From: Pyrofollis japonicus
GTDB lineage: Archaea > Thermoproteota > Thermoprotei_A > Sulfolobales > Pyrodictiaceae
Direction: 5' to 3'
NCBI RefSeq assembly: GCF_033097485.1
Contig: NZ_AP028634.1
Location: 310,001 to 374,000 of the forward strand
Length of the DNA stretch: 64,000 bases
In this document: in pieces, positions 17,556 through 42,081 of the stretch
How positions within the stretch are numbered: position 1 is the first letter of the stretch
How the letters are laid out: each line of letters starts with the position of its first letter
Made by a program: the position numbers and the translations under genes
Notes under the pieces: generated by a model
Databases searched by the model: none
Seen by the model: the letters and a program-made list of their open reading frames with translations, nothing else
Told to the model about the DNA's origin: nothing

Positions 17556-17620
17556 CAAAATGATGACAGTAGGGGTTCAGAGCACATGAGGCTATGAAGA
17601 GACCTGTCTCAGCTGATGAT
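17556..17620 (+). ncRNA. C/D box sRNA guiding large-subunit rRNA
   Basis: Box C ATGATGA (17560-17566), 11-nt guide CAGTAGGGGTT (17567-17577), D' CAGA (17578-17581), 12-nt spacer, C' ATGAAGA (17594-17600), 12-nt guide GACCTGTCTCAG (17601-17612), D CTGA (17613-17616). D' CAGA and C' ATGAAGA have paired U-to-A changes at facing kink-turn positions. The second guide is antisense to TGAGACAGGTC, a conserved large-subunit rRNA segment near the sarcin-ricin region; rule-of-five counting points to the G in TGAG. There is no long terminal stem. It lies 57 bp after the zinc-ribbon stop and is perhaps co-transcribed. Confidence 0.85.
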
Positions 17621-17638: not shown

Positions 17639-17699
17639 ATGTCAGCAAGGAGAATGGTCGTCATCGCTATGCTCTAGAGACCGTCGTATCATCATCCAT
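17639..17699 (-). ncRNA. C/D box sRNA guiding the abutting large-subunit rRNA site
   Basis: On the minus strand: 3-bp stem ATG/CAT, box C ATGATGA (17695-17689), guide TACGACGGTCT (17688-17678), D' TAGA-like (17676-17673), C' ATGACGA (17664-17658), 12-nt guide CCATTCTCCTTG (17657-17646), D CTGA (17645-17642). The first guide is antisense to AGACCGTCGT, which lies directly before the TGAGACAGG target of the sRNA at 17556. The second guide could pair, with one G-U, to CAAGGGGAAT of the large subunit. The two sRNA genes are convergent, about 20 bp apart, between the zinc-ribbon gene and deoC. Confidence 0.8.
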
Positions 17700-27910: not shown

Positions 27911-30511
27911 ATGGTTCTTGATATTAAGAATATAGATTTAGAAGAAGTTTCAAAGAAGGATATAGAAGATATTGCTAAGAAAATAGCGGAGGAATTAAAA
28001 GAATATGTTCCCTCTAGTTTTAACAAGCTACTAAGAAAGCTAAGCAAAGGAATAGAGAGAGCAATTGTATCACGACATAGAAGGCTCTTAGTTATCAGCG
28101 GAGCCAATCCATTCAAAACCGGAATTCTTGCAGCAAGGGCCTTATTATTCTACGAGAGAGTATACAAGAGGGTCAAAGGCAAAGAAGAGATACCAATGCT
28201 TTACGTTTTCCATGACGAGTTCAAAGATGCCCGCATAAGAAAGGAGGTTGTCAAACGAGCCGTTAAAGCAAATGCAACACTGCTCACAACCACAATTGCC
28301 CGCTATGAGGAAAGCGAGAGATACCTAGGTACAACATTTAAGGCACTAGTCATGGATTTAACAAACGATTTGAAACCAAATGATGTGGGAAGGCTTGTCG
28401 GAATAGTCGAAGGCGGAGGCCTCATAATCTTTCTAGTTCCACCATGGGCGAAGTGGGACAAATGGCTCACAATATTTAAACAGAACCTTATAGTACCGGG
28501 GTTTAAAGAGCCCCGCCACATCTTCATAACATGGTTTAAGAGAAAGCTCCTTGAACACAAAGGTATATACATCTATGACGCAGACGAAGATGAGACAATA
28601 AAAGCAGACGACTATCCAATTGTCAAAACTAAGGAAAGACGTATAGAGATACCAGAAGAAACTCTTTTCCCCAAGGAACTCTATGAGCTAGCACTTACAC
28701 AAGACCAAGTCAACGTAATAAAACTTCTAGAAAGAATAATAGAGAAGCCGAAGAAAAAGCGATTAGCAATAGTCATTACCTCTGACCGTGGACGCGGTAA
28801 GTCATGCGCCCTAGGCATAGCATCCATAGGCATAGGGCTCAAGCTCAGAAAGGGGCATCGCACAAGGATAATCGTGACAGCACCCAGCTTATTGAACGTC
28901 CAATCATTCTTCATGCTAGCGCAGAAGGCTGCAGATAAACTCGGCCTAGAGACCCGTATAGTGAGGAGAGGAGACAACATTCTTGAGATTCATGGACCGC
29001 GTTTTAGCATCGAATATTGGGAGCCAATACATGTTCCGAGACTTAAAGCAGACGTAGTAATAGTTGACGAGGCTGCAGGCATCCATGTCCCATTGTTACA
29101 CAAAATATGGAGAAGCCACAGAAAGCTTGTATTCGCAACGACGATTCACGGCTATGAAGGAGCCGGCAGAGGCTTCTCCGTACGATTCCTTTCAGCCTTA
29201 CGAGACGATCCCAACACTGAACTCATAATAACAGAAATGCACGAACCAATCCGCTACGCAGAAGACGACCCAATAGAAAGATGGCTATTCGACGCCCTAC
29301 TGCTTGACGCTGAACCAGCCGAACTCTCGAAAGAGGACATTGAAGCTATTGAACGAGGTGAACTAGTTTATGTTAAATATGATCCCGAGTACCTCTTTAG
29401 CCGTGAAGGCGAAAGCGAACTAAGACAATTATTCGGCATATACGTTCTTGCACACTATCGCAACGAACCTGATGATCTAGCCATACTTGCAGACGCACCT
29501 CATCACTTAATAAGAGCCATTAAACTCCCTTCAGGTAAAATCGTGTGCGCCCTACAAATAGCTCAGGAAGGCGGACTAAGCGACGACCTCATAGAGGAGC
29601 TTCTTAGAGGAGGCAAAACTCCTGGAAACATTATTCCAGATCGCGCTCTTAAGCATATAAGGATAAGAGAGTTCGGAAAGGCAAGAGGCTGGAGAATCGT
29701 AAGAATTGCAACACATCCAGAGGTACAAGGGAAAGGCATTGGCTCCTTTGCGTTGAAGGAGGCTTCCAACGAGGCAAGAGAACAAGGTCTTGACTGGATT
29801 GGGAGCGGATTTGGAGTAAACGAGCAACTCCTGAGATTCTGGACAAAGAACGGATTCCTGCCCATACATATGTCTCCAGACCGTAACCCTGTGAGCGGTG
29901 AATACACCATACTTGTTATAAAGCCACTTAAGGAGGAGTTTAACCAGATCGTGGATGTAGCTAATAGAGAATTTAAGAGGAAGCTCCTAGAATGTCTGCA
30001 CGACCCTTACAGAGACCTTGAGACAGAAGTTGCAATACAAATACTTAAAACGGGTAACCCTGTGCTAGAAAACCACTATCCAGTACTGACACCCATACAG
30101 CTTGATAGATTGTGGATCTACGCCTATGGACCAATGACATATGAAGCCGCAGCGGATATTATATATGAGGTCGTAAAAGCTTATTGGATAATGTATCCTA
30201 AAACAAAAGGACTATCGTTCACAAAGAGAGAAGAACATGTCTCGGTAGCCAAGGTTCTTCAAGCAAAACCTTGGGACGAAGTTGCGTCTGAACTAAAGAT
30301 ACGGCCTTACACAGTTATGGTGACCCTCAAAGATATTGCAAGAAAGGTTTTGAAACACTACTATGGGCGCGACTCGGACTCGCCAGTGGGCATTAGCGCA
30401 GGAGAATTAATAGCGAAGGGAGGACTATACTTTGTCCCACCAATACAGTTTAGATCAAGAGGGGAATCGACTCAGCCGAGAACCGATTCATCAGAGAAGG
30501 ATTCAGACTAA
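27911..30511 (+). CDS. tmcA: tRNA(Met) cytidine acetyltransferase TmcA / NAT10-Kre33 family
   Basis: The 866-aa protein has an N-terminal TmcA domain (about 1-240), a RecD-like helicase module with Walker A SDRGRGKS (291-298) and Walker B VVIVDEAAG (about 382-390), a GNAT acetyltransferase with IATHPEVQGKGIGSFAL (about 598-614), and a C-terminal RNA-binding region. The family makes N4-acetylcytidine in RNA, and in hyperthermophiles at many rRNA and tRNA sites. The long 5' gap (27767-27910) shows only a possible TTAATAA box. Confidence 0.95.
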   Translation: MVLDIKNIDLEEVSKKDIEDIAKKIAEELKEYVPSSFNKLLRKLSKGIERAIVSRHRRLLVISGANPFKTGILAARALLFYERVYKRVKGKEEIPMLYVFHDEFKDARIRKEVVKRAVKANATLLTTTIARYEESERYLGTTFKALVMDLTNDLKPNDVGRLVGIVEGGGLIIFLVPPWAKWDKWLTIFKQNLIVPGFKEPRHIFITWFKRKLLEHKGIYIYDADEDETIKADDYPIVKTKERRIEIPEETLFPKELYELALTQDQVNVIKLLERIIEKPKKKRLAIVITSDRGRGKSCALGIASIGIGLKLRKGHRTRIIVTAPSLLNVQSFFMLAQKAADKLGLETRIVRRGDNILEIHGPRFSIEYWEPIHVPRLKADVVIVDEAAGIHVPLLHKIWRSHRKLVFATTIHGYEGAGRGFSVRFLSALRDDPNTELIITEMHEPIRYAEDDPIERWLFDALLLDAEPAELSKEDIEAIERGELVYVKYDPEYLFSREGESELRQLFGIYVLAHYRNEPDDLAILADAPHHLIRAIKLPSGKIVCALQIAQEGGLSDDLIEELLRGGKTPGNIIPDRALKHIRIREFGKARGWRIVRIATHPEVQGKGIGSFALKEASNEAREQGLDWIGSGFGVNEQLLRFWTKNGFLPIHMSPDRNPVSGEYTILVIKPLKEEFNQIVDVANREFKRKLLECLHDPYRDLETEVAIQILKTGNPVLENHYPVLTPIQLDRLWIYAYGPMTYEAAADIIYEVVKAYWIMYPKTKGLSFTKREEHVSVAKVLQAKPWDEVASELKIRPYTVMVTLKDIARKVLKHYYGRDSDSPVGISAGELIAKGGLYFVPPIQFRSRGESTQPRTDSSEKDSD

Positions 30512-30521
30512 TATTCCGTCA

Positions 30522-31301
30522 TCACAGTCTCTGCCATTTAACACCATTTTCCTTAGCATAGAGGCTGAAAAGCTGTATAAAAAACTCAGCTATCGAGAGC
30601 TTACGCTTTTTCTCCGTCCACGGCTTAACACTACTAGATAGCCAAGGCTTTGACCAATACCCAACTCTTTCCCAAGTACGCATACCAGCCAAGACTATAC
30701 TTGCTGCACCACAGATAAGAGCTAAACCTATGGCGCGTTCACCATCAGTAAAGCCTGGTAATAAGGAAAAGTATGAGTAATCTGTTGGACACTGAGTCGT
30801 CAAAGCTATTTTTTTAAACATTGGAGCAAGATGCTTTACTGCAGGAATATTATCGCCATGCACATGTACAACCATATATGCTCCGTGCTGGCTAGCCTTT
30901 AGCAAATATGCCCATGGACCATCTAAATCACTAACAACAATATCGGGATCTATACTATTTTCTAGGAGAAACATAGAGGCGCCATCAGCTGCAATAATTC
31001 TTTCACACTCATTGAGAGCACCAAGCTGTCTTATTAAGCTCTCTGAGCCCCCAGCAATGCAGACGCTCTTGCCTTTAAGCAAGCTACATATATCCTGTAT
31101 AGCGATAAACCGTCCTTGCAGCATCGCATCATAGGCGAGCCTATTCGCTACACGACTAGCTTCGCAATCCATTGCTCTATTGTAGTGCATTATCGCCCTT
31201 ATAGCTTCGTAGACCTCTGACCAATAGAGCGGGGATAATGCAGATATGGTGATTAATTCTAAGCGATTTAGTGAAGTGGTTGTATCGCTAAGACTAGACA
31301 A
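30522..31301 (-). CDS. mptE: 6-hydroxymethyl-7,8-dihydropterin pyrophosphokinase, MptE type
   Basis: The protein has the archaeal MptE/DUF115 signature: VCIAGGSESL, IIAADGASMFLLENSIDPDI, VVSDLDGPW and VVHVHGDN. MptE makes hydroxymethyl-dihydropterin diphosphate for tetrahydromethanopterin or folate-like cofactors. The frame opens at 31349, but family proteins start near the LSPLYWSEVYEAI segment; TTG 31301 is the nearest usable codon I see, so the 5' end is uncertain and overlaps the divergent DUF447 gene. That neighbour is also linked to pterin metabolism. Confidence 0.85.
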   Translation of the reverse strand: MSSLSDTTTSLNRLELITISALSPLYWSEVYEAIRAIMHYNRAMDCEASRVANRLAYDAMLQGRFIAIQDICSLLKGKSVCIAGGSESLIRQLGALNECERIIAADGASMFLLENSIDPDIVVSDLDGPWAYLLKASQHGAYMVVHVHGDNIPAVKHLAPMFKKIALTTQCPTDYSYFSLLPGFTDGERAIGLALICGAASIVLAGMRTWERVGYWSKPWLSSSVKPWTEKKRKLSIAEFFIQLFSLYAKENGVKWQRL

Positions 31302-40732: not shown

Positions 40733-40813
40733 TAGCCATACTCAATATTTTCAACGAATTAATACAAGACTAATACAATATATCTACTAATACTTACTAT
40801 CGTATTAATAAAA

Positions 40814-40873
40814 TGCGATGATGAAGTACCCCGATAGCGCGAAAACAATGAGCGAAGGGTAGGTTGCTGAGCA
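40814..40873 (+). ncRNA. C/D box sRNA directly upstream of a protein gene
   Basis: Stem TGC (40814-40816) with GCA (40871-40873), box C ATGATGA (40818-40824), 14-nt guide AGTACCCCGATAGC (40825-40838), D' GCGA (40839-40842), 5-nt spacer, C' ATGAGCG (40848-40854), 12-nt guide AAGGGTAGGTTG (40855-40866), D CTGA (40867-40870). The D'/C' pair is the same paired variant as in 13331-13397. The RNA ends on the base before ATG 40874. An AATATATCT box about 30 bp upstream could start the sRNA. Confidence 0.78.
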
Positions 40874-41476
40874 ATGAAAACAAAAGGCGCCAAAACACTT
40901 AGCGCGGAAAAATCGAAAGAAAAACCGCCCCAGAAAACCGTTAAAGAATTCATAGAAGCCATAGCCGATTATATTATTAAGCGAATTTCCGCAAACTCGT
41001 TTCCATCTCTTTATGAGATTTATCTTGAGGCACTACGTCATACCGGTAAGCCGCACAAGGTCTCTTCAAGAATTTACGGTTATTTTCTATTGTCGCAGTT
41101 ACGGCGCTTAAGGGATACTTTGTTGGACAAAGCAGCTGAGGCGATCTCAGCACATGTTGATGAAATAGGTGATAGCCCATTATATGCAGAGTTATCTTCT
41201 ACACTAATGAGATATGCTCTTCACGAGCTAGGCTTAGTTCAGAATATTGTAACAAGTCTTGAAAGCATTGTCCTTGGCGAAGACGTGGATAACGATAAAA
41301 CGGAACTTATGGAAGAATTCATATTTTCGGCTATTACGAGATTTTTAGCGACCATGTATGTTATCTCAAGCATTAACACCAGTATGTTAGAGAAAATGTA
41401 TAAGAAGATTGTGGAGGCAATAAATACATTCATATCAGAGGAAATGAACATTTATCTCGAAAAGATTGCGCGTTAA
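40874..41476 (+). CDS. helical hypothetical protein
   Basis: This 200-aa protein has a Lys/Glu-rich N-terminus followed by long helices (KTVKEFIEAIADYIIKRI, YGYFLLSQLRRLRDTLLDKA, EEFIFSAITRFLATMYVISS). It has no cysteines, signal peptide or recognised motif. It starts right at the end of a C/D sRNA and is convergent with tbp, 2 bp apart. Confidence 0.6.
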   Translation: MKTKGAKTLSAEKSKEKPPQKTVKEFIEAIADYIIKRISANSFPSLYEIYLEALRHTGKPHKVSSRIYGYFLLSQLRRLRDTLLDKAAEAISAHVDEIGDSPLYAELSSTLMRYALHELGLVQNIVTSLESIVLGEDVDNDKTELMEEFIFSAITRFLATMYVISSINTSMLEKMYKKIVEAINTFISEEMNIYLEKIAR

Positions 41477-41478
41477 TG

Positions 41479-42081
41479 TTAGGTACAAGGTCTTATTGCT
41501 CTTACTTTCTTAAGTTTCTCGTAAATTCTCTTCACGGCTTCATATACTTCTTCTTCTCTTTTAGCACCCGTGATTACCATTTTACCCGAGCTAAATATTA
41601 GTAGTACAACACGTGGCTCATCCATTCTATGTATTAGGCCTGGAAACTGCTCAGGCTCATACATGCTGTTTTCCAAGGTCAATGCAGCCCGCTCAAGGTC
41701 AACACATACATTGAGATTAGCTGAGGCAACAATGTTTTGTATTTGAACCTTCGATCGCCCGTGAATAGGAATCCCGTGTTTCTTTAAGTTTCTAACTATT
41801 TTCTTGACGGCTTCTATGAGATCACGAGTACTTTTCGCACCCGTGACAACCATTTTACCGGATTTAAATATAAGTGCTGTTACCTTCGGAGAGTCGAGCC
41901 TATAGACCAGCCCCGGAAACTGCTCAGGATTATATTCAACAGTCAATATGCTTCTTTCAATCATTCTGAGATCGAGTGTCTGATCCAAGGATACTGTCGC
42001 AACAATGTTTTCTATGTTAACAACTGGTTGAGGCTCTTGCTGAGCCTCTGAACGCTCAGAGCTTTGACGAGGAGAAGCCAT
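41479..42081 (-). CDS. tbp: TATA-box-binding protein
   Basis: The 200-aa protein has two TBP repeats: [18 protein letters not shown]...FPGLVYRL...[16 protein letters not shown] and [18 protein letters not shown]...FPGLIHRM...[16 protein letters not shown]. The N-terminal tail is Gln/Glu/Ser-rich. It recognises TATA boxes and recruits TFB for all RNA polymerase initiation. Its own promoter has TTTAAATA on the minus strand at 42120-42127. Confidence 0.98.

Follow-up and report, generated by a model that had tools for sequence, protein, structure and literature searches.

A 60-nt C/D box sRNA at 40814-40873, on the forward strand of the window (the whole stretch of 64,000 nucleotides that was analysed, from a hyperthermophilic archaeon), ends on the base adjoining ATG 40874, the first codon of a protein gene of 200 codons. 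Reading of the sequence confirmed to the base this junction, which an earlier note on the same DNA had described. Judged from its sequence, the element is a real C/D box sRNA with two guides for predicted 2'-O-methylation of 16S rRNA, since each guide is complementary to the 16S rRNA of the same organism and 14 of 20 family genomes carry the sRNA. We slightly favor an explanation in which sRNA and gene would share one transcript, sRNP assembly and translation would compete for it, and the guide would double as ribosome-binding site.

The sRNA and its targets in 16S rRNA

The C (RUGAUGA) and D (CUGA) boxes lie near the ends of the sRNA, as in other archaeal C/D box sRNAs (Table 1). The internal boxes are degenerate in the window copy (C' ATGAGCG, D' GCGC or GCGA), and outgroup copies have CTGA as D' box. 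The alignment used for the boxes omitted two of the 13 copies that stand before the gene (those of genomes G015 and G018, with a long internal loop and CCGA as D box) as well as the copy of genome G007. The TGA of the D box is at the same time an in-frame stop, one codon (GCA) ahead of ATG 40874.

Table 1. Features of the sRNA, the region before it and the downstream gene, in window positions
Feature	Coordinates	Strand	Remarks
TATA-like AATATATC, candidate promoter	40777..40784	+	picked by eye; expected transcript start ~40807
Other promoter candidate	40759-40766	+	best score on weak tRNA-derived matrix
C/D box sRNA	40814..40873	+	dual guide to 16S rRNA; closing TGC/GCA
C box ATGATGA	40818..40824	+	from sequence and alignment; preceded by TGCG
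D' guide region	40825..40838	+	40828-40838 pairs with own 16S nt 29-39
Degenerate D' box GCGC	40837..40840	+	by alignment with CTGA in two outgroup copies
Alternative D' box GCGA	40839-40842	+	by end of complementarity
Degenerate C' box ATGAGCG	40848..40854	+	from sequence and alignment
D guide AAGGGTAGGTTG	40855..40866	+	40856-40866 pairs with 16S nt 109-119
AGGT in D guide	40861-40864	+	can also pair with 16S 3' tail as Shine-Dalgarno
D box CTGA	40867..40870	+	followed by GCA 40871-40873, then ATG 40874
Protein gene	40874..41476	+	200 codons; 200-aa protein, predicted all-helical; relatives across family

Just upstream of the D and D' boxes, both guides contain the stretch of about 10 nt or more complementary to rRNA that is expected of a guide. 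We used the organism's own 23S and 16S genes, with 16S numbering from the start of the RF01959 match. The D guide forms 11 contiguous Watson-Crick pairs with 16S nt 109-119, and the D' guide forms 11 such pairs plus one G-U pair with nt 29-39. The D' guide also matches 16S near nt 505, more weakly, with wobble pairs and a single mismatch. The methylated base is the partner of the fifth base before the box. On this rule the D guide is predicted to direct 2'-O-methylation at 16S C113, and the predicted target of the D' guide is G35 if the D' box is GCGC and U33 if it is GCGA.

The chance level was estimated over 424 kb (the window and 360 kb of the same genome), where seven C..D candidates with a 10-nt rRNA match were found versus two with reversed k-mers. 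Among the seven, only 40814-40873 has both guides matched, and only here does a start codon abut the sRNA. Several candidates from this genome lie close to each other or to gene ends. Those at 17560-17616 (+) and 17642-17695 (-) are on opposite strands, 25 bp apart, and one D guide and one D' guide match neighbouring 23S sites, by 10-mers from about nt 2786 and 2777. The candidate at 30472-30525 (-), with a D guide to 23S at about nt 1815, has the stop codon of the upstream ORF inside its C box, and three more in the same genome lie at ORF ends or at most 35 nt after them (L125:11712-11772 (-), L124:5559-5615 (+) and L117:7104-7159 (+)).

Rfam gave no match at gathering scores in the whole window, and ARAGORN found no tRNA there. 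The predicted fold of the leader is no better than that of shuffled sequences (z 0.62). The guides are partly complementary to each other (TACCC/GGGTA, 40827-40831 and 40857-40861) and are paired in the predicted fold. A short frame of four codons, M-S-E-G-stop, extends over the C' box and into the guide (40848-40862) and can also be read, with ATG or GTG, in three relatives of the genus, probably only because box and guide are conserved.

Distribution of the sRNA and the gene

We compared the genome that holds the window (G000, one contig of 2.0 Mb) with its relatives in a family set of 20 genomes. Thirteen of these have the sRNA immediately before the gene. A search with a model built on sequence only found it in one further family genome, G007, and matched the G018 copy weakly (E 1e-4). 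The same search gave 15 more matches outside the family (E 2.2e-5 to 0.0099), most of them over the D-guide half only, which were not counted. In 12 of the 13 genomes with the pair, an unrelated gene of about 200 codons precedes the sRNA on the same strand. Nine genomes were measured for the distance to this gene: its stop codon lies inside the C box in two (G008 and G015), and sRNA and gene are 23-62 nt apart in the other seven. The frames first taken for the upstream ORF in G011 and G018 were spurious and were not used. In G000 a universal stress protein gene occupies the place of the usual upstream gene, which has no match in this genome at E 0.001 and, in the relatives, no Pfam or NCBIfam match over the cut-off.

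The downstream gene directly follows the upstream gene, with no sRNA between them, in G007, G009, G012 and G013; for G012, the downstream gene is a frame that resembles it by appearance. The sRNA of G007, a single-contig genome, is found by itself among other genes, some 1.5 Mb distant on the record, so sRNA and gene are separable. The model search found no sRNA copy in G009, G012 and G013, two of which are less than 80% complete, and protein and model searches found neither sRNA nor gene in G002, G010 and G019, genomes that are 61-75% complete. A scan of the whole collection gave 20 matches, of which the eight bacterial ones were left aside. Eight of the 12 archaeal matches were read for context (L025-L030, L032 and L034), and the remaining four, L036, L040, L041 and L042, which are contigs of G001, G016, G004 and G003, were used for proteins. 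Six of the eight loci read are outside the family; two of these six, L025 and L028, have both guides, and neither has a same-strand frame of 60 codons starting within 200 nt downstream. The sRNA is conserved as a unit in the 14 family genomes, and these two loci also keep both guides. Because the gene occurs with no sRNA in front of it in four genomes and the sRNA is alone in G007, L025 and L028, neither needs the other.

A bare 14-mer also matched nine genomes in other families of the order. These were not counted as this sRNA: L044 and L052 lie inside coding frames, and the rest are differently built sRNAs or unclear. In L047-L050 (near 1501), from another family of the order, GGGTAGGTTGCTGA stands right after a GTGATGA box and is followed by a second GTGATGA...CTGA, an order that would fit an sRNA of different build whose D' slot serves the same 16S site.

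Mapped on a tree built from the two proteins, the sRNA's presence at this place takes three changes, at least two of them forced by well-supported branches, and the abutting start takes two. G006 and G009 are on long branches, and the placement of G006 is unsure. Upstream-gene sequences entered the tree from 14 of the 16 genomes that have one, those of G017 and G018 not being recovered by motif. The family thereby offers a natural comparison of 13 genomes with the sRNA before the gene and four with the gene lacking it, one of which has the sRNA elsewhere. It can be used to study the sharing of a transcript by a guide RNA and an mRNA, and a possible second role of the guide as ribosome-binding site.

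The gene is not the orphan that it had been called from the window alone. Protein matches at E 0.01 or better occur in 15 of the 20 family genomes, and G006 has a diverged copy at the same place (19% identity), giving relatives in at least 16. A second match in G007 (481 aa) and weak matches outside the family (G081, G067, G084, G089 and G023; open frames of 421-530 aa) were set aside as probable chance matches. Between G001 and G004, dN is 0.027 and dS is 0.172 over the ORF (0.074 and 0.247 in the first 30 codons); on this sequence comparison the gene is intact and under purifying selection. The protein has no Pfam or NCBIfam match over the cut-off, and a profile search of solved structures gave only one match, weak and partial (E 0.0004, 30 positions), with a designed helical repeat protein. 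Its AlphaFold model is good (mean pLDDT 85.5; residues 1-19 below 50), and a Foldseek search with it against the PDB returned nothing at E 0.001 or better. On its other side the ORF converges with the gene of the TATA-binding protein (41479-42081, -), with 2 bp (41477-41478) between the stop codons, and a similar frame was seen by eye beside the gene in G004 and G013.

Start codon, proposed shared transcript and rival explanations

In all four same-genus genomes with the pair, the start codon directly follows the GCA of the sRNA, at +3 from the D box; one of them uses ATG and the other three use TTG. The sequences diverge immediately past the start codon. The members of the genus share ancestry, a point against the explanation we prefer. 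Between -40 and +130 nt around the end of the D box, G000, G001 and G004 have no other ATG, GTG or TTG that leaves at least 150 aa; G003 has two further ones, at +105 and +129. In 8 of the 13 pair genomes, the start is away from the sRNA edge, and in seven of these eight a start at +37 to +59 has a Shine-Dalgarno of its own that is not part of the sRNA. G011 has in addition a stronger Shine-Dalgarno start at +127, which would remove some of the conserved part. The edge position does not hold generally, since the best start of G008 is a TTG inside the sRNA (-9.8 kcal/mol) and G006, where an ATG is possible at +2, has a same-frame TTG within the guide whose Shine-Dalgarno is stronger (-8.4 vs -7.4). 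In the window, the start codon of a real downstream gene lies just past the D box, as expected of a 5'-overlapping C/D sRNA gene.

The D guide pairs with the 16S tail at -7.4 kcal/mol in five genomes, the four of the genus and G006. A duplex at least this strong was seen at 5% of 600 random positions, before 24% of 215 first genes and before 39% of 64 inner genes. In the genome sample, which took the first start of the longest frame so that some starts are wrong, G peaks at -8 to -13 before starts (maximum at -11), and there is no TATA peak at -26, including in the 215 first genes. From these sequence profiles the G000 genome looks Shine-Dalgarno-led rather than leaderless. The AGGT of the D guide lies at -13 to -10 from the ATG, the distance typical of the genome. 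The match, with an AGGT core and one bulge, is moderate, and the 16S guide could have produced it incidentally. Because the D guide is also kept in the unlinked copies of G007, L025 and L028, it appears to be kept for 16S rRNA, with the gene start adapted to it. In the predicted fold of the naked leader, part of the Shine-Dalgarno is paired with the D' guide.

The promoter evidence is weak in both directions. A matrix derived from ten tRNA upstream regions is itself weak, and AATATATC is outside its best six; its scores upstream of the sRNA are 5.5, 4.8 and 4.4. From these scores and the spacing to the upstream gene in the nine genomes measured, both indirect evidence, we infer that sRNA and gene share one transcript; on the sequence the ORF may also have a separate promoter. 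That such a promoter lies inside the sRNA, which would make the adjacency transcriptionally meaningless, we regard as extremely improbable. The best score there, 3.1, would put a box about 26 to 19 bp before the ATG, and two of the ten training sites, which span 2.2-9.7, score lower; yet it comes from a weak, un-TATA-like 16-mer at 40842, whose box ATGAGCGA is the C' box, and the scores upstream of the sRNA are higher.

In the explanation we prefer, the sRNA occupies a narrow intergenic space ahead of a conserved protein gene. The two are most likely transcribed together, so that the sRNA would form the leader of the gene. On this view the start lies exactly at the 3' edge in the genus because the conserved D guide (AGGGTAGGT) would also act as a Shine-Dalgarno at the usual spacing. 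Binding of L7Ae, Nop5 and fibrillarin would cover guide and Shine-Dalgarno and lead to trimming to the sRNA; without sRNP assembly, the ribosome would land on the guide and translation would follow. A given transcript would be either trimmed or translated, never both. More tentatively, and with considerable doubt, we suggest that the 11-nt segment has two 16S partners, nt 109-119 as guide and the 3' tail as Shine-Dalgarno, with exclusive fates and an output tied to ribosome-assembly demand. If assembly and translation do exclude each other, output of the protein would follow free L7Ae, Nop5 and fibrillarin and hence that demand.

Pure compaction, in which a short intergenic gap happened to receive the sRNA and the abutment saves space without affecting either product, seems rather unlikely to us. 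The gap that lacks the sRNA in G007, G009, G012 and G013 and the displaced sRNA of G007 speak for it, as does the start distance that differs between genera. On the other hand, members of the genus keep exactly the same start position with proteins that share only 43-46% identity with the G000 protein, and the guide provides Shine-Dalgarno strength at the usual distance. The earlier note offered two further readings. One, sRNP assembly with cleavage or trimming at the sRNA 3' end to give an mRNA beginning at the ATG, fits the exact abutment in all four genus members with the pair and the commonness of leaderless messages in archaea (PMC5539422, available part). We nevertheless judge it improbable, because of the G peak at -8 to -13, present even in first genes, and the lack of a TATA peak at -26 in the genome sample. 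TTG, which suits leaderless initiation poorly, is the start codon in three of the four, and the start is not at the edge in 8 of 13 genomes.

The other reading, an sRNP on the leader that controls translation, is a plausible hypothesis from the sequence; against a regulatory purpose stand four relatives in which no sRNA precedes the gene. The earlier interpretation is partly supported: the shared transcript agrees with the one we propose, the leaderless message is less likely, and the orphan status is refuted. It is very unlikely that the leader works like the Sulfolobus l7ae 5' UTR, with the sRNP or L7Ae on the box C/D kink-turn repressing the ORF and sensing free L7Ae. There is the precedent of L7Ae on a leader kink-turn beside the Shine-Dalgarno (PMC5539422, available part), and here the Shine-Dalgarno lies inside the sRNA; against it, searches for family and fold gave the ORF no recognised link to ribosome assembly, and relatives carry the gene without the sRNA.

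Comparison with known systems

In its available part, PMC12817955 contains nothing on C/D sRNAs. A narrow literature search found no report of a guide serving as Shine-Dalgarno, and we do not claim that none is in print. The arrangement is real and mostly ordinary, of a kind that is uncommon but already described; the instance is new. What can be tested beyond the known kind is the guide as Shine-Dalgarno.

To our knowledge, none of the seven archaeal species in a published survey of guides belongs to the family of the window organism. That survey treats 16S methylation guides among 489 sRNAs, and in its available part the densest target region comprises 16S helices 3, 18 and 27 (Dennis et al., 2015; PMC4644070). 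Guide targets mentioned there include 16S C35 and G36, in the paper's own numbering, close to the target of our D' guide.

In Sulfolobus acidocaldarius, L7Ae represses its own message via a leader kink-turn beside the Shine-Dalgarno, according to the available part of PMC5539422. Our case shares with the l7ae 5' UTR a kink-turn in a leader adjoining the Shine-Dalgarno; the difference is that a simple kink-turn precedes L7Ae's own gene there, whereas here a whole dual-guide sRNA precedes an unrelated protein.

The arrangement is known from sRNA genes that overlap the 5' end of an ORF, which account for 7% of sRNA genes (Tripp et al., 2017, as cited in the available part of the review PMC7994747). 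In these overlaps the start codon lies mostly in a guide or past the D box, and downstream expression is lowered. Most sRNAs mature from longer precursors, for which the boxes are needed and the surroundings are not (PMC7994747). The present sRNA resembles them in a start codon within the sRNA or just past the D box, and in the shared precursor and box-dependent maturation proposed for it. G008 and G015 show the related 3' overlap, in which a stop codon falls inside the C box. Unlike the cases in the available part of that review, the abutment is kept across a genus, the gene is intact and under purifying selection, and the guide is a plausible Shine-Dalgarno.
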